DNA of 64,000 nucleotides from Microbacterium sp. XT11. Its GTDB lineage: Bacteria; Actinomycetota; Actinomycetes; Actinomycetales; Microbacteriaceae. This document shows, in pieces, positions 57,157 to 63,625 of the stretch. The stretch spans positions 745,081-809,080 of the forward strand of contig NZ_CP013859.1 of NCBI RefSeq assembly GCF_001513675.1. Direction: 5' to 3'. The translations under genes were made by a program, and so were the position numbers. The notes under the pieces are model-generated. The model searched no databases. It worked only from the letters and a program-made list of their open reading frames with translations, and had not been told where the DNA came from. The stretch's first letter is position 1. Each line of letters opens with the position of its first letter.

Positions 57157-58530
57157 CTAGTTGAAGTCGCCGCCCGGCGCCATGTCGGCGAACCGCGAAT
57201 AGTGGCCCTGGAACGCGACGGTGATCGTGGCGGTCGGGCCGTTACGGTGCTTGGCGACGATGAGGTCGGCCTCGCCGGGGCGCACGTCCTTGTCGTACAC
57301 CGAGTCGCGATGCAGCAGGATGACCATGTCGGCATCCTGCTCGATCGACCCGGACTCACGCAGGTCGCTGATCGCGGGCTTCTTGTCCTGCCGCTGCTCG
57401 GGACCACGGTTCAGCTGCGACAGCGCGATCACCGGAACCTGCAGCTCCTTCGCGAGCAGCTTGAGGGCACGCGAGAACTCCGAGACCTCCTGCTGACGCG
57501 ATTCGACGCGCTTGCCCGACGTCATGAGCTGGAGGTAGTCGATGATGACCATCTTCAGCCCGGCCCGCTGCTTGAGGCGACGGCACTTCGCGCGGATCTC
57601 GACGAGCGTCATGTTGGGGCTGTCGTCGATGTACAGCGGCGCGTCGTTGATGCGGCCGCGCGTCGCGGCGACGGTCGTCCAGTCGCGCGGGTCGAGCGTT
57701 CCCTTGCGCATGCTCTGCAGCGGGATGGCCCCCTCGGCGCTGAGCAGGCGCATCGCGATCTCGCTCTTGCCCATCTCGAGCGAGAAGAAGATCGACGGGT
57801 GGTTGTGGCCGATGGATGCCGCACGCGCGAAGTCCAGCGCAAGCGTCGACTTACCCATCGCGGGTCGCGCGGCCACGACGATCATCTGACCGCCGTGGAG
57901 GCCGTTGGTCAGCTCGTCGAGCTCGCGGAACCCGGTCGGGATGCCGGTCATGGTGCCGTCGCGGCCGGTCGCCGCTTCGATCTCCTCGACGGCGGCGTCG
58001 ACCGCGACGGTGAGCGGCACGTAGTCTTCGGCCGTCTCGGAACCGGTGACCGAGTAGATCTCGGCCTGTGCGTTGTTGACGATGTCGGTCGCATCGCCCT
58101 GACCCTCATAGCCCAGCTGCACGATGCGGGTTCCCGCATCGACGAGCCGCCGCAGGATCGCACGCTCGGACACGATGCCGGCGTAGTAGCCGGCGTTCGC
58201 CGCCGTCGGCACGATCGAGGTCAGGGTGTGCAGGTAGTCGGCACCGCCGGCGCGGCTGAGCTCGCCTGTCTTGATCAGCTCGTCGGTGACGGCGACGACG
58301 TCGGTGGGCTCTCCATGGGAGTACAGCGAGAGGATCGCTTCGAAGATCAGCTCGTGCTTGGGGATGTAGAAGTCGGCGCCCTTGAGCGTCTCGATCACAT
58401 CGGCGACGGCGTCTTTCGAGAGGAGCATGCCGCCAAGGGCGCTCTGCTCTGCGAGGAGGTCGTGGGGCGGCGTGCGCTCCGGCTGACGCTGCCCGCCCAG
58501 ACGTTCGTCGGTGATGTCCGCGATCGACAC
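57157..58530 (-). CDS. dnaB: Replicative DNA helicase DnaB
   Basis: 457 residues from GTG 58530, preceded by GGGAG. The N-terminal domain holds PPHDLLAEQSALGGMLLSKDAVADVIETLKGADFYIPKHELIFEAI; the RecA-like domain has Walker A ARPAMGKSTLALD, FFSLEMGKSEIAMRLLSAE, Walker B MVIIDYLQLM, and LSQLNRGPEQRQDKKPAISDLRESGSIEQDADMVILLHRD. No intein interrupts it. It unwinds the replication fork as a hexamer. The gene is separated from rplI by the secreted-protein gene, which runs the opposite way. Confidence 0.97.
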   Translation of the reverse strand: MSIADITDERLGGQRQPERTPPHDLLAEQSALGGMLLSKDAVADVIETLKGADFYIPKHELIFEAILSLYSHGEPTDVVAVTDELIKTGELSRAGGADYLHTLTSIVPTAANAGYYAGIVSERAILRRLVDAGTRIVQLGYEGQGDATDIVNNAQAEIYSVTGSETAEDYVPLTVAVDAAVEEIEAATGRDGTMTGIPTGFRELDELTNGLHGGQMIVVAARPAMGKSTLALDFARAASIGHNHPSIFFSLEMGKSEIAMRLLSAEGAIPLQSMRKGTLDPRDWTTVAATRGRINDAPLYIDDSPNMTLVEIRAKCRRLKQRAGLKMVIIDYLQLMTSGKRVESRQQEVSEFSRALKLLAKELQVPVIALSQLNRGPEQRQDKKPAISDLRESGSIEQDADMVILLHRDSVYDKDVRPGEADLIVAKHRNGPTATITVAFQGHYSRFADMAPGGDFN

Positions 58531-58697
58531 ACTGCTCCCTTCGATGCGACGGAGTGGATGGTTCTGGCAGCGGCCGAATGGGGCCGTTCGCCGCGGCTCC
58601 TTGCCCTTCGTCGGCCACGTGCACAGCGAATCACGGGCCCCGGACATTCGGTCGCTGGACCACGCTATTCACGCCGTGTTCACCCCGCAACAGCGCC

Positions 58698-58840
58698 TGT
58701 GGATAACCATGTGGAAAGCGTGCGGAGAATCTCGGAGTGTCTGTGCAGAACTCATGTGGATAACGTGGTGCACTACTCCCGTCGGTGACTTTTTTCTTCG
58801 GGCTGATCTGCGCTTTCTTGTTTCCTCACCCTGTGGATGG
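58698..58840 (+). promoter_or_regulatory. DnaA-box cluster upstream of dnaB
   Basis: TGTGGATAA, the reverse complement of the DnaA box TTATCCACA, is perfect at 58698-58706 and 58755-58763. Two degenerate copies in the same orientation are at 58710-58718 (TGTGGAAAG) and 58832-58840 (TGTGGATGG). A T-rich tract at about 58788-58825 lies between them. This is not a full oriC, since dnaA and dnaN are absent, but it may titrate DnaA or regulate dnaB. The 528-base gap contains no gene. Confidence 0.55.
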
Positions 58841-58972
58841 AAATCGGTTTAAAGCGGAGATTGAAGGTTGTCCCCATCCACCGGGGATGTGTAGAACCTG
58901 GGGAAAGTCAAGCCGGAGTCCGGCTCGGGCGCGTCGTGCGACGGCGTCGGCGGACCGCATCCGAAATACCCA

Positions 58973-59001
58973 TGGACAGCACCACGCACCCGGAGTATTC
59001 T
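58973..59001 (+). promoter_or_regulatory. Promoter of the secreted repeat protein gene
   Basis: TGGACA (58973-58978) and TATTCT (58996-59001) are separated by exactly 17 bases, a strong vegetative-type promoter. A GAGGGGGAGG ribosome-binding site follows at about 59043. Confidence 0.65.
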
Positions 59002-59058
59002 CGGCGCATCGACGCGACCGCGCCGACCTGCGTTTGCCTTCAGAGGGGGAGGTGGACC

Positions 59059-59886
59059 GTGCACGCTCATGCCGCCGCGCATCGTGTGCGCACCACCGTG
59101 CTCTGGGGCGGTCTGGGCGTTCTCGCGTGGGCGCTCCTCACCCTCGTCACCGGCGGCGGCACAGCCCACGCCGACGAGAGCGCGCCCGATCCGGTGGGCG
59201 GGCTCACCGGCCTCGTGAGCGACGCGGTCGACGCGACGACGACCACGGTCTCCTCGGTCGTGGCGCCCGCCATCGAAGCCGTCGTGGCACCTGCCGTCGA
59301 AGCGGTCGTGGTACCGACGGTCGAAGCCGTCGTGGCGCCGACGGTCGAAGCCGTCGTGGCGCCGGCCGTCGAAGCCGTCGTCGCGCCCGTGCAGGAGGCT
59401 GCCCCTGTCGTCCAGGCCGCGACGTCGGCCGTGGCGACCATCGCGCCTGTTCCGGCGGCCGCGGTGGTCTCGCAGATCAGGCGTCCGCTCACGGATGCCG
59501 TCTCGCAGGTTCCCGTCATCGGGGGCGTGCTCGACGACCTCGGCGTGACGGAGGCGCTCGACGACGTGACCGGTGCGGTCGACGACAGTGCCGGCACCAT
59601 CGGCTCGGTCATCGATTCCACGGTGCCGCCTGTGGTCGGTGCGCTCACTCCCGAGGCCCCCAGACCTCCCGACTCATCGGTCGGCGAAGAGACGCCGGCG
59701 TCACCGCAGCCCGCCTCGCCGCACACTTCGCCGCACGCCTCGGCACCGTCCGCAGGATCGAGCTCCGCCGACGTGAGCACTGCGGATCCCGGCTCTTCAG
59801 CGGCGCACCTCGCGGATCCGACATCTGCTGCCCCCCGCAAGGAGATACCGCGCCGCCGGGCACATCGCGGGTTTCGAGTCGCATGA
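59059..59886 (+). CDS. Secreted octapeptide-repeat protein of unknown function
   Basis: 275 residues from GTG 59059. A basic N-terminus and hydrophobic helix (VLWGGLGVLAWALLTLVTGGGTAHA) form a signal peptide with an AHA cleavage site. Residues about 67-114 are six tandem octads of the form VVAP-(A/T)-(V/I)-EA. A Pro/Ser/Thr-rich C-terminal third follows and the protein ends with a short basic tail. No LPXTG motif or known domain is visible. I recognise no family. Low-complexity cell-surface or cell-wall-spanning proteins look like this. The stop codon lies inside an inverted repeat. Confidence 0.82.
   Translation: MHAHAAAHRVRTTVLWGGLGVLAWALLTLVTGGGTAHADESAPDPVGGLTGLVSDAVDATTTTVSSVVAPAIEAVVAPAVEAVVVPTVEAVVAPTVEAVVAPAVEAVVAPVQEAAPVVQAATSAVATIAPVPAAAVVSQIRRPLTDAVSQVPVIGGVLDDLGVTEALDDVTGAVDDSAGTIGSVIDSTVPPVVGALTPEAPRPPDSSVGEETPASPQPASPHTSPHASAPSAGSSSADVSTADPGSSAAHLADPTSAAPRKEIPRRRAHRGFRVA
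59257..59400 (+). repeat. Six tandem 24-base repeats
   Basis: Units begin at 59257, 59281, 59305, 59329, 59353 and 59377 and encode the octads of the secreted protein. Units 2-5 are nearly identical and the outer two diverge, so the copy number may vary between strains. Confidence 0.85.
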
Positions 59887-59931
59887 TCTGCCCCGAAAAG
59901 CCGAATTCGAGGGCAAATCATGCGACTCGAA
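59873..59931. repeat. 21-base inverted repeat over a stop codon
   Basis: The arms 59873-59893 and 59911-59931 pair with one mismatch (15 bases without any). The loop contains the palindrome CGAATTCG. The left arm holds the TGA stop codon of the secreted protein gene. It may be a terminator, or a copy of a dispersed palindromic element. Confidence 0.6.
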
Positions 59932-59942
59932 CCGGCAAGAGG

Positions 59943-59962
59943 CCCCGGCCACCCGGCCGGGG
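59943..59962. terminator. Perfect 8-base hairpin
   Basis: CCCCGGCC (59943-59950) and GGCCGGGG (59955-59962) close an ACCC loop. It is the second of three consecutive hairpins between convergent genes. Confidence 0.55.
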
Positions 59963-59965
59963 GCA

Positions 59966-60021
59966 CCGCGAACGCAGAACGCCCCCTGACCCGAAGGAGA
60001 GGAGGCGTTCCGCGTTCGCGG
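59966..60021 (-). terminator. Terminator of the rpsF operon
   Basis: The arms 59966-59983 and 60004-60021 pair over 18 positions with one mismatch. The structure starts 9 bases after the rplI stop on the minus strand, so it is the natural end of the rpsF-ssb-rpsR-rplI transcript. Confidence 0.75.
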
Positions 60022-60030
60022 CCGTCGCGC

Positions 60031-60483
60031 TTACTTGGCGGCGACGACCTGCAGCGTGATGACAGCGGTCACGTCGTCGTGCAGACGAACCGTGGCCTCG
60101 TGCTCACCGACCTGCTTGATGGTCGAGGTGATGTGCACCTTGCGCTTGTCGATCGAGCCGAGGCCGGCAGCCTCGACGGCGGCGGCCACGTCGGCCGTCT
60201 TGACCGAGCCGAAGAGGCGACCCTCGGCGCCCGCCTTGACGGCGAGACGCACCTTGGTGCCCTCGAGCGTGTTCTTCAGCGCCACGGCCTCGTCGCGGTC
60301 GTGGATCGCGCGAGCCTGGCGAGCAGCCTGGATCGAGGCGACCTGCTTTTCGCCACCGCGGGTCCACGCCGTAGCGAAGCCCTGCGGGATGAGGTAGTTG
60401 CGGGCGTACCCGTTCTTGACCTCGACCACGTCACCGGCGCTTCCGAGCCCGGCGACCTCGTTCGTGAGAATCAGCTTTGCCAT
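60031..60483 (-). CDS. rplI: 50S ribosomal protein L9
   Basis: 150 residues. The N-terminal RNA-binding domain [37 protein letters not shown] is diagnostic; a long connecting helix and the C-terminal domain ending [16 protein letters not shown] follow. It binds 23S rRNA near the L1 stalk. It is the last gene of the rpsF operon, 11 bases after rpsR. Confidence 0.97.
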
Positions 60484-60494
60484 GTCGGTACCCC

Positions 60495-60749
60495 TCAGCG
60501 GCCGGCGCCGGCGTAGGGCAGGAGAGCCATCTCGCGAGCGTTCTTGATCGCCTTGGCGATCAGACGCTGCTCCTGCACGGACACACCGGTGATACGACGG
60601 GCGCGGATCTTGCCGCGCTCCGAGATGAACTTGCGGAGGGTCGCGACGTCCTTGTAGTCGATGACACCAACGCGGATGGACTTCGCGGGAGCGGCGTTCT
60701 TCGCGCCCTTCCGCGGCTTGCGGCGGTCGCCGCTCGACTTTCCAGCCAT
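60495..60749 (-). CDS. rpsR: 30S ribosomal protein S18
   Basis: 84 residues. [50 protein letters not shown] is the S18 core. The N-terminal zinc cysteines of some S18 forms are absent, so this is the zinc-independent type. It binds the 30S platform together with S6, which is encoded in the same operon. Confidence 0.97.
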
Positions 60750-60799
60750 TGTGTTTCCTTAGTTGTGAGTCGGATGCCGCAGCATCCGGAGATCCTTGA

Positions 60800-61306
60800 T
60801 CAGAAGGGGGTGTCGTCGCCGAAGCTGCCCGGAGTGCTCCAGGCATCCGCGCTCGTGGACGAGCCGGGCGTGGACCACGGCTCCTCCGACACCTGCTGCT
60901 GCGGGCGGGACTGACCGCCGCCCTGGAAGCCGCCACCGTTCGACGCCGCACGGGTGACCTGCGCGGTCGCGTAGCGGAGCGAGGGGCCGATCTCGTCGAC
61001 CTCCAGCTCGATCGCGGTGCGCTGGTTGCCCTCGCGGTCCTGGTAGGAGCGCTGACGCAGGCGGCCGGTCGCGATGACCCGCATGCCCTTGGTCAGAGAA
61101 CCCGCCACGTGCTCGGCGAACTCGCGCCACACCGATGCGCGGAGGAACAGCGCCTCGCCGTCCTTCCACTCATTGGTGGCGCGGTCGAAGTTGCGAGGCG
61201 TCGACGCGATGGTGAAGTTCGCCACCGGCAGTCCGTTCTGCGTGTACCGCAGCTCGGGGTCGGCCGTGAGGTTGCCCACCACGGTGATGACTGTTTCGCC
61301 GGCCAT
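60800..61306 (-). CDS. ssb: Single-stranded DNA-binding protein
   Basis: 168 residues. The OB fold is seen in [35 protein letters not shown] and [45 protein letters not shown] Gly/Gln/Ser-rich linker leads to the acidic tip DDTPF that recruits partner proteins. It lies 5 bases after rpsF, the usual bacterial order. Confidence 0.97.
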
Positions 61307-61311
61307 GAGAC

Positions 61312-61677
61312 TTACGCCTTCGCAGCCTTGGGCTTGCGGGCGGCCTTCTCCTCGGCGCGCTTGGCTTCGGCGGCGACCATGGCCTGTGCCTCCTCGGCAC
61401 GCAGGACCTTGGTGCGCATGATCGACTCGTTCAGCTTGAGCTGACGGTCGAGCTCCTGCGTGGCCTCGCTGGTCGCGGTGAAGTTCACGACGGCGTAGAT
61501 GCCCTCGGTCTTCTTCTGGATCTCGTACGCGAGACGGCGCTTGCCCCAGATGTCGACCTTGTCGATCGAGCCACCATCGTTAGTGATGACCTTCAGGAAC
61601 TTGTCGAGCGTGGGGGCGACCGTGCGCTCGTCGATCTCGGGGGTCAGAATGACCATGAGTTCGTACTGGTGCGTCAC
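61312..61677 (-). CDS. rpsF: 30S ribosomal protein S6
   Basis: 121 residues from GTG 61677, seven bases after [37 protein letters not shown] and [25 protein letters not shown] are the S6 landmarks; the C-terminus is Lys/Ala-rich. It is first in the rpsF-ssb-rpsR-rplI operon. Confidence 0.97.
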
Positions 61678-61707
61678 TTACCCACCTCCTTCGGACTAGA
61701 ACGGCTC

Positions 61708-61722
61708 CCGGGACTTTCCCGG
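61708..61722 (-). promoter_or_regulatory. Hairpin in the rpsF leader
   Basis: CCGGGA (61708-61713) and TCCCGG (61717-61722) pair around three bases, 30 bases upstream of the rpsF start. Many bacteria have an S6:S18-binding RNA here that gives feedback control; this hairpin may be part of it, but the full motif was not checked. Confidence 0.3.
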
Positions 61723-61785
61723 AAGCAGGAGGGTGTGTAGCACGTCGTCGTCCCGGCATCCGATGGACGCCCGCAGACAGACAAC

Positions 61786-61798
61786 CTAGACAGTCTAG
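61786..61798. promoter_or_regulatory. Palindrome with -10 box upstream of rpsF
   Basis: CTAGAC-A-GTCTAG is a perfect 6-base dyad. On the minus strand it contains TAGACT, a good -10 box for the rpsF operon, about 115 bases before the start codon. Confidence 0.4.
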
Positions 61799-61860
61799 CG
61801 GAGTTTCCTCGGGAGCGCCTGCCAGCCTGCGCGGGCGTGCTTGGCATGCTGGAGGGGTGT

Positions 61861-61877
61861 CCGGTGAGGGTCACCGG
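61861..61877. promoter_or_regulatory. Inverted repeat before the lipoprotein gene
   Basis: CCGGTGA-GGG-TCACCGG is a perfect 7-base dyad 23 bases upstream of the ATG at 61901. It could be an operator or an RNA hairpin just ahead of the ribosome-binding site. Confidence 0.35.
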
Positions 61878-61900
61878 CACGAGACTGGAGGGGGGACGCC

Positions 61901-62608
61901 ATGCGCGTCACCAACAAGTGGGGCGTCGGCGTCATCGTCGCCGCTGCCGTGCTGCTGACCGGATGCTCCGGCACGTCGGAGAAGCCCGAACCGTCGTCGG
62001 CTTCGGACGCACCCGCATCGCAGGAGGCGGACGCTCCGCAGAGCGACTGCCCCGAACTCACCGTGGGCGCGACCATCGACGGCGCCACGCTCGGGCCGTG
62101 CATCGCCGACGCCATGGCCGACACCGCGGGCTACGCCGCGAAGACCAGCGTCATGGGCGTCGAGTCGACCACGCGCTTCAACCCGGGCGAGCACGCCATC
62201 GAGTCGGACTCGCCCGTCGGGTCGATCATCGTCATCGGCGACGACGTGTGGGTGAAGTCGGCTGCGAGCGAGTGGCAGACCGCGGACCCCGCGTCGAGCG
62301 ACCCGATCGTGGCCGCGCTGAGCAGCAGCGCAGCCCAGGTGGCATCGCTCGACCCGGCCGCGATGGCGACCGCGCTCACCGGAGACTTCACGGTGACGGG
62401 AACCGGCACGCGACTCGGCCAGGAGGTGTTCCTGCTGAGCGGCCAGGTGCAGCAGCAGGGCGCCACGGTCGAGATCGTGTCGGAGGTCACCGCGGACTAC
62501 GTGACGCTGGCATCGACCAGCTCCGCGTCGCTCAACGGCCAGTCGGTGCAGATCTCCATGGAGGTCACCGAGTGGGACGTGAAGCAGGACATCGTCGCGC
62601 CGCTCTGA
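61901..62608 (+). CDS. Lipoprotein, LppX/LprG-like in outline, function unknown
   Basis: 235 residues. Signal peptide with lipobox LLTGC (C22), then a Ser/Ala/Pro/Glu linker. The mature region (DCPELTVGATIDGATLGPCIADAMADTAGYAAKTSVMG, then SIIVIGDDVWVKSAASEWQTADPAS) has alternating strands resembling actinobacterial LppX/LprG-type lipoproteins. I do not recognise a specific family with certainty. Start ATG 61901 follows GGAGGGGGG. It stands alone and ends at a strong hairpin. Confidence 0.82.
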   Translation: MRVTNKWGVGVIVAAAVLLTGCSGTSEKPEPSSASDAPASQEADAPQSDCPELTVGATIDGATLGPCIADAMADTAGYAAKTSVMGVESTTRFNPGEHAIESDSPVGSIIVIGDDVWVKSAASEWQTADPASSDPIVAALSSSAAQVASLDPAAMATALTGDFTVTGTGTRLGQEVFLLSGQVQQQGATVEIVSEVTADYVTLASTSSASLNGQSVQISMEVTEWDVKQDIVAPL

Positions 62609-62657: not shown

Positions 62658-62667
62658 TTGCTAGTCT
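62658..62667 (+). promoter_or_regulatory. Extended -10 promoter of the erm leader
   Basis: TTGC then TAGTCT (62662-62667) carries the TGn extension of an extended -10 promoter. Transcription would start about 62674, exactly at the GTG of the leader peptide, so the leader mRNA is probably leaderless. No consensus -35 is visible. Confidence 0.55.
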
Positions 62668-62673
62668 CGACGC

Positions 62674-62742
62674 GTGGGAATGATAGACAACGCGCCCGTG
62701 ACGGGGCGCTTCTTCTTCACCTTCCGCGACCGCCGCGCCTGA
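62674..62742 (+). CDS. Erm leader peptide (macrolide-sensing)
   Basis: A short frame of 22 codons from GTG 62674, or 20 from ATG 62680, ending at TGA 62740-62742. It encodes GRFFFTFRDRRA at its C-terminus. The R-D-R triplet fits the Arg/Lys-X-Arg/Lys motif at which macrolide-bound ribosomes stall. Its stop codon overlaps the left arm of a hairpin, and the erm gene follows 124 bases later. Stalling here would disturb the hairpins downstream and open the erm ribosome-binding site. The role is inferred from position, motif and RNA pairing. Confidence 0.7.
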   Translation: MGMIDNAPVTGRFFFTFRDRRA

Positions 62743-62862
62743 CGGCGCGCTCGCTCACGCTCGCAGAAGCGCGCCGTCCTCCGAGATCCTCTGCACCTCG
62801 GACGGGCGCTCTCGCGTACTCTCACGCCGCCTCACGGGGTGCTCCATCGACTTCGGGAGCAC
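62741..62862 (+). promoter_or_regulatory. Translational attenuator of erm
   Basis: Three hairpins lie in series. Stem 1 is perfect over 11 bases (62741-62751 with 62768-62778) and overlaps the leader stop. Stem 2 pairs TCCGAG (62780-62785) with CTCGGA (62797-62802). Stem 3 pairs GTGCTCC (62839-62845) with GGAGCAC (62856-62862) and buries the GGGAG ribosome-binding site of erm. An alternative stem, GCGCC with GGCGC across the leader stop codon, can compete with stem 1. This is the layout of an inducible erm gene. Confidence 0.7.
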
Positions 62863-62866
62863 GCTC

Positions 62867-63625
62867 ATGTCTCGTTCTCTGCACGGCGGCCGGCACGAAC
62901 TCGGCCAGAACTTCCTCACCCACGCCCCCACCATCCGCACCATCATCCGGCTCGTCCATGCGACGCGCGGCCCGATCCTCGAGCTCGGCGCCGGCGACGG
63001 CGCGCTGACGAGGCACCTGGCCGCGACCGGCCGCCCTGTGACCGCCATCGACATCGACGAGCATCGGGTGCGCCGGCTGCGCACGGCACTGCCGCACGTC
63101 GAGGTCGTGCACGCGGATGCTCTGCGGCATCCGGTGCGCACGCCGACGGTCGTCGGCAACGTGCCGTTCCACCTCACGACCCCGATTCTGCGCAGGCTCC
63201 TGAATGAGCGACGGTGGGAGGAGGCGATCCTCGTCACGCAGTGGGAGGTCGCCCGCAAGCGCGCGGGCGTCGGCGGGCACACTCTGATGACCGCGCAGCA
63301 CGCGCCCTGGTTCACGTTCGGGCTGCACGGCAGGGTACCGAGCTGGGGGTTCACCCCGCGCCCGAGCGTCGACGGCGGCATCCTCACCATCACGCGCCGC
63401 GGCTCCCCGCTCGTGCCGCACGCCGAGCGGCGGGCGTACGAGGGGTTCGTCCGCGCGGTGTTCTCGGGGCGCGGCGGCCGGCTCGACCGCATCGTGCAGG
63501 CGGCCGCACACGTCGACAGGGCGACCGCGGCCGCGGCCGTCGCGCGGATCGGTGCCGCGAAGGCCCTGCCCCGCGACCTCGACGCACGCCAGTGGGCCAC
63601 CCTGTGGCACGCCCTGCGGCGGTGA
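62867..63625 (+). CDS. erm: 23S rRNA (adenine-N6) methyltransferase, Erm family
   Basis: 252 residues. Motif X is GQNFLTHAPT, motif I ELGAGDGALTRHLA, motif II AIDIDEHRVRRL, motif III HADALRHP, and the catalytic motif IV GNVPFHLTTPILRRLL; the C-terminal helical domain ends RQWATLWHALRR. KsgA homologues lack the NVPFHLTTPI pattern. It methylates A2058 of 23S rRNA and gives macrolide-lincosamide-streptogramin B resistance. ATG 62867 lies seven bases after a GGGAG site held in stem 3 of the attenuator. Composition matches the surrounding DNA, so there is no sign of recent transfer. Confidence 0.93.
   Translation: MSRSLHGGRHELGQNFLTHAPTIRTIIRLVHATRGPILELGAGDGALTRHLAATGRPVTAIDIDEHRVRRLRTALPHVEVVHADALRHPVRTPTVVGNVPFHLTTPILRRLLNERRWEEAILVTQWEVARKRAGVGGHTLMTAQHAPWFTFGLHGRVPSWGFTPRPSVDGGILTITRRGSPLVPHAERRAYEGFVRAVFSGRGGRLDRIVQAAAHVDRATAAAAVARIGAAKALPRDLDARQWATLWHALRR

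Follow-up and report, generated by a model that had tools for sequence, protein, structure and literature searches.

Attenuation of erm expression by way of a leader peptide is textbook knowledge. R-x-R is a known arrest motif for macrolides and ketolides, with X in the P site (PMC8298421, PMC6851288), where the peptidyl-X-tRNA fails to react with Arg-tRNA (PMC8298421). In the presence of tylosin, for example, ribosomes stall on the tlrB leader when the P site holds Tyr and the A site Arg (PMC6851288). Within the actinomycetes, attenuation has already been proposed for erm(X) (PMC3350403). Mycobacterial erm(37) is generally presented as an exception under WhiB7 control (PMC4128351). When the regions upstream of erm genes were surveyed, no pattern common to all uORFs emerged, and independent origins were proposed (PMC11264731). 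We found no direct description of leaderless erm leaders from Actinomycetes in the open-access papers searched; older subscription papers could hold one.

The locus described here lies in a stretch of 64,000 nucleotides (the window) from Microbacterium sp. XT11, a soil actinobacterium whose genome is a single contig of 3.475 Mb; the erm gene is chromosomal. All coordinates are those of the window, and erm and the elements of its leader region are on the + strand. The gene at 62867-63625 (ATG at 62867, stop ending at 63625) encodes 252 amino acids and is, judged by family model and sequence, an Erm family methyltransferase, for which methylation of 23S rRNA at A2058 and MLS resistance are predicted. 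The protein passes the generic NCBIfam model NF000499 with 240 bits (cut-off, 212) and also matches RrnaAD (PF00398). It reaches the cut-off of no named class among the NCBIfam class models, the nearest being Erm(46) at 257.9 versus the required 503, and the closest solved structure is that of Erm(38). At an E value of ≤1e-20, 116 of 367 genomes of the same genus gave a match; about 105 of these are true erm relatives with 57 to 100% identity, and the rest are KsgA-like, with about 35% identity. The distribution of erm in the genus is patchy. In three same-genus genomes (loci L107, L108, and L109 in G193, G326, and G261, respectively), erm is disrupted by split frames or a missing start, and at L108 an intact RDRRS leader still precedes the broken gene. 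Leader and erm are 100% identical over 980 bp at L036, L115, L116, and L177 to L182, on contigs labeled as Kocuria, Propioniciclava, Homoserinimonas, Intrasporangiaceae, and other Microbacteriaceae; if these MAG labels hold, the copies reflect recent transfer of a whole regulated module between families. Phage sequences gave no DNA match. In the window, a ribosomal and replication cluster resembling rpsF-ssb-rpsR-rplI-dnaB adjoins erm (region 57157-62608, read from the open reading frames), and a lipoprotein-like gene without a Pfam match lies beside it at 61901-62608.

Upstream of erm, an extended -10 box, TGCTAGTCT (TG-C-TAGTCT), is found at 62659-62667, and no match to a sigma-70 -35 element was found before the leader. 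The box predicts a transcription start at about 62674, where a GTG, seven bases after the last base of the -10 hexamer, opens a frame of 22 codons (62674-62742) encoding VGMIDNAPVTGRFFFTFRDRRA. No Shine-Dalgarno (SD) sequence precedes this leader, and the erm start lies 124 nt past it. The peptide ends in R-D-R-R-A; the R-D-R triplet (CGC GAC CGC, 62725-62733) is the predicted site of a macrolide stall, in which Asp would occupy the P site and Arg the A site. Codons 2 to 4 (62677-62685) are AT-rich across the genus, and GGA, ACA, and ATA look rare for a high-GC genome; such early codons perhaps keep the leaderless 5' end unstructured.

There were 103 usable Microbacterium loci, that is, loci with a sufficiently long upstream region and a placeable erm start, and every one of them carries a short frame upstream of erm that ends in R-x-R-[RS]-x-stop. 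The commonest form in the genus has 21 residues, (M/V)-G-T-I-x-x-A-P-(V/M)-(M/T)-x5-(F/V/I)-R-D-R-R-A, and two outliers (L104 and L106) have MAYTxHGAFGRLALTRLRSA, again with R-x-R plus two residues. All 103 loci have a TANNNT hexamer whose first base lies 12 or 13 nt ahead of the leader start (72 at -13 and 31 at -12); in upstream windows of four bases, the mean background is 0.5 per 103. SD-like tetramers precede the leader in only 4 of the 103 loci and the erm start in 93. Because the -10 spacing is fixed and SD sequences are so rare, the leader would appear to be leaderless by rule in the genus, with a transcription start placed from the spacing. The original prediction had pointed to the extended -10 box and to a short leaderless frame with R-D-R near its end, and both held up, with frame, spacing, and motif occurring far beyond chance. 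It had also called the leaderless start unusual, which proved mistaken, as this start is the rule for actinomycete erm leaders.

A further 138 upstream regions, drawn from family and class sweeps, named genome contigs, and named plasmids, were searched for a TANNNT box 11 to 14 nt before a start codon together with R-x-R within the last residues of the frame. The same design was present in 123 of these 138 regions, which are not independent, as they overlap with the Microbacterium loci and include identical copies; reverse complements gave 0 and shuffles gave 0 to 3. In the family and class subset alone, it was found in 44 of 50 regions. The leaders of erm(X) (MLISGTAFLRLRTNR, with TATAAT 13 nt before its start), erm(36) (MGSPSIAVTRFRRF), and erm(55) (a GTG start and then GITSVAVIRIRRF) all fit. 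By the same search, the regions upstream of erm(46), erm(50), and erm(51) lack the design, three others (L145, L198, and L237) show the R-x-R frame but no box, and the one distant ErmE-type gene sampled (L164) has no such frame. Among 142 distinct leader peptides, all have R-x-R and never lysine, though lysine was allowed, and 138 have exactly two residues between the motif and the stop, where zero to four were allowed. The residue before the motif is I, V, or F in 117 of the 142, and X is D in 95. Large-genome actinomycetes (L147 to L153 and L155 to L158) often have leaders of 12 or 13 residues, such as MLAFPCFVRIRRS and MSVFALIRMRRF, perhaps a minimal form of the sensor. On balance we favor the view that actinomycete erm genes share one sensor, a leaderless open reading frame starting at the first base of the mRNA and encoding a peptide that ends in R-x-R-z-z-stop.

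Conservation of RNA helices between the leader and erm was examined in an alignment of 89 loci. The erm SD sequence, GGGAG at 62855-62859, lies in arm g (GGGAGCAC, 62855-62862), which is buried by arm f (CGGGGTGCTCC, 62835-62845) through its segment GGTGCTCC. Across the alignment, 99.7% of cells are paired in this stem, which joins 62838-62845 to 62856-62862. The first 8 nt of f can instead pair with arm d' (GCACCTCG, 62793-62800), which is covered in turn by the pairing of d5 (CCGAG, 62781-62785) with CTCGG at 62797-62801. Two mutually exclusive sets result: an OFF-type set of the d5:d' hairpin and f:g, and an ON-type set of d':f (98.2% of cells) and B:C (95.9%), where B overlaps the leader stop codon and C lies downstream. 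Both sets are about 96 to 97% paired and show covariation, whereas sliding the partners by 1 to 3 columns lowers pairing to 30 to 53%. Alignment column pairs that covary are 91-178 (AU/GC), 94-175 (UA/CG), 95-174 (CG/GC), 76-95, and 77-94; on the Erm tree, parsimony requires the CG/GC switch at 95-174 to have arisen independently five times or more. Both d':f and d5:d' covary, the latter as GC/CG and AU/GC. When arms are exchanged between species, pairing weakens for d':f (z, -12.0), for d5:d' (z, -10.1), and for the leader with C (z, -9.7) in permutation tests that ignore the relatedness of the species; control arm pairs showed no effect. RNAalifold, unaided, returns B:C and d':f. In the fold of the isolated RNA from 62674 to 62880, f:g forms, and the stability of this RNA exceeds that of shuffled sequences (z, -3.6). 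No relevant Rfam family was found.

The pairing of the leader involves two near-repeats, TGACGGGGCGC in arm A (TGACGGGGCGCTTC, 62699-62712, leader codons 9 to 13) and TGACGGCGCGC in arm B (TGACGGCGCGCT, 62740-62751), each complementary to GCGCGCCGTC in arm C (GAAGCGCGCCGTCCT, 62766-62780). Arm e (GGACGGGCGC, 62800-62809) is a weaker alternative partner of C (z, -2.7); arm swaps showed no coevolution of the leader arm with e or of e with its 3' neighbor. In all 89 sequences, A:C is stronger than expected from synonymous codons (-18.9 versus -13.6 kcal/mol for the null) and, by this comparison, is selected beyond codon choice. A small hairpin at the stop codon (CGCGCC-TGAC-GGCGCG) was considered as a selected element and rejected, with -13.5 kcal/mol versus -13.8 for the null and no coevolution. 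The original prediction of a first stem over the leader stop codon thus survives in part: the conserved helix of the stop region is B:C (62741-62751 with 62768-62778), the small hairpin is not selected, and the comparisons suggest that the stem is better described as arms A and B competing for C. The last stem, predicted to bury the erm ribosome-binding site, corresponds to f:g, and its conservation in relatives extends to the leader, the R-x-R motif, the leaderless start, and the alternative helices, all kept in about 100 of them.

For the leader RNA of the window, a ribosome footprint set over the predicted stall position, with the Asp codon in the P site, reduced A:C from 9.2 to about 0 expected pairs in the computed fold and raised B:C from 0.6 to 7.6; a footprint at termination left A:C in place. 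In a transcript ending at f, the stall raised d':f from 1.5 to 3.6 expected pairs, compared with about 0 for a ribosome at termination; this rise is consistent with a switch that acts cotranscriptionally. Folding with forced helices likewise gave a rise of d':f upon stalling in the transcript ending at f (0.84 versus 0.67), and a decrease in the full-length RNA (0.33 versus 0.50). At equilibrium, the SD sequence of the full-length RNA was about 97% paired at every ribosome position, so that these calculations did not reproduce its release; nearest-neighbor folding is a weak judge of GC-rich RNA.

We consider it very probable that this chromosomal erm gene is preceded by a translational attenuator that responds to macrolide stalling at R-D-R. 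Transcription would start at or beside the GTG at 62674, as its spacing from the -10 box suggests, and translation of the 22-codon leader would begin at the 5' end of the mRNA and use no ribosome-binding site. With no drug present, the leader would be read through, f:g would hold the erm SD sequence, and C would pair with A or e. A ribosome bearing a macrolide would presumably stall at R-D-R, with the Asp codon in the P site and the Arg codon in the A site. There it would cover the last codons, abolish A:C and the stop-codon hairpin, and free B for C, the flip seen in the computed folds. B:C may then favor d':f in the growing transcript, which would take f off the SD sequence so that Erm is made and A2058 methylated. 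Counted against this reading are the equilibrium folds of the full-length RNA, in which the SD sequence stays paired and d':f does not rise upon stalling, and the observation that erythromycin stalling is sometimes independent of R-x-R (PMC8298421), so that the inducing drug may be another macrolide or a ketolide. Leader, motif, spacing, and both helix sets can be regarded as established by comparison among relatives, and we infer that the gene would be inducible by macrolide. The macrolide attenuator of the original prediction is therefore supported as to kind by a leader, R-x-R, and stems kept in about 100 relatives.

The alternative that survives best, though we regard it as unlikely, is transcription attenuation, in which the stalled ribosome prevents termination between the leader and erm, as for whiB7 and in part for tlrB. 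Indeed, whiB7 leaders of actinobacteria work in this way (PMC10727445), and tlrB of Bacillus joins both modes (PMC6851288). Inside the leader, at 62692-62709, there is also a terminator-like GC hairpin of six pairs followed by a TTCTTCTTC tail, whose halves coevolve (z, -5.2); it may act as a pause site or belong to the folding of arm A. However, no GC stem with a U-run occurs between the leader stop at 62742 and erm at 62867, though Rho could in principle act there, and the conserved complementarity targets the SD sequence itself. It is more improbable still that erm is constitutive or driven by WhiB7, as mycobacterial erm(37) and erm(41) are under WhiB7 control (PMC4128351, PMC10727445), with the R-x-R frame a passive remnant; about 100 species preserve the leader, the position of the motif, and both alternative sets of helices, unlike passive sequence, which disfavors this reading. 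WhiB7 dependence of the promoter could coexist with attenuation by the leader. We give almost no credence to an untranslated frame with RDRRA conserved solely for RNA pairing around the stop codon. In its favor, the codons (CGC GAC CGC CGC GCC) scarcely vary within the genus. Across the class, however, the R-x-R residues stay while the Arg codons vary (CGC, CGG, CGT, AGG, and CGA), the stop hairpin does not exceed its synonymous null, and the leader start codon and -10 spacing are fixed.

Attenuation at R-D-R, the reading we prefer, is itself of a known type; what would be new is the leaderless sensor, the two-repeat switch, and the class-wide rule of R-x-R-z-z-stop. The common pattern of a leaderless start and R-x-R-z-z-stop occurs in about nine of ten of the actinomycete regions examined, including those of the plasmid-borne erm(X), erm(36), and erm(55). 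If the shared design is real, it contradicts the view that there is no universal uORF (PMC11264731), at least within Actinomycetes. Drug sensing would in that case require leaderless (70S-type) initiation and a ribosome stalled at a fixed distance from the leader stop codon, while the RNA arms downstream of the shared sensor diverge. Given the common leader pattern, inducible macrolide resistance would therefore be predictable from sequence, and the part played by leaderless initiation in sensing antibiotics can be tested directly. The pattern further suggests a ribosome-based sensor of their own in some erm genes of the mycobacterial type, which are usually explained by WhiB7.

Among known systems, the Microbacterium locus resembles ermC, ermA, ermB, and ermD of the Firmicutes in having a short leader, a predicted macrolide-dependent stall, and alternative hairpins that would control the erm ribosome-binding site, and it shares the R-x-R arrest motif with the RLR leader ermDL (PMC8298421). 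Unlike those of the Firmicutes, its leader appears to be leaderless, the peptide is unrelated, only two residues separate R-x-R from the stop, and a single arm is contested by two near-repeats, of which one lies within the leader and the other over the stop. The tlrB (yxjB) leader of Bacillus subtilis likewise has R-Y-R at its C terminus and an SD-sequestering hairpin (PMC6851288), but it governs an RlmA-II (G748) methyltransferase, has an SD sequence of its own, and works with transcription termination and NusG pausing. The attenuators of whiB7 rely on an antibiotic-stalled ribosome on an actinobacterial uORF, as predicted here; there the control element is a Rho-independent terminator and the target a transcription factor, whereas here they are the SD sequence and erm. 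The erm(X) gene of corynebacteria, on plasmid pNG2, is likewise an actinomycete erm, whose leader, MLISGTAFLRLRTNR, has RLR near its end; it differs in its Erm protein, about 47 to 51% identical, and in its leader and RNA arms.
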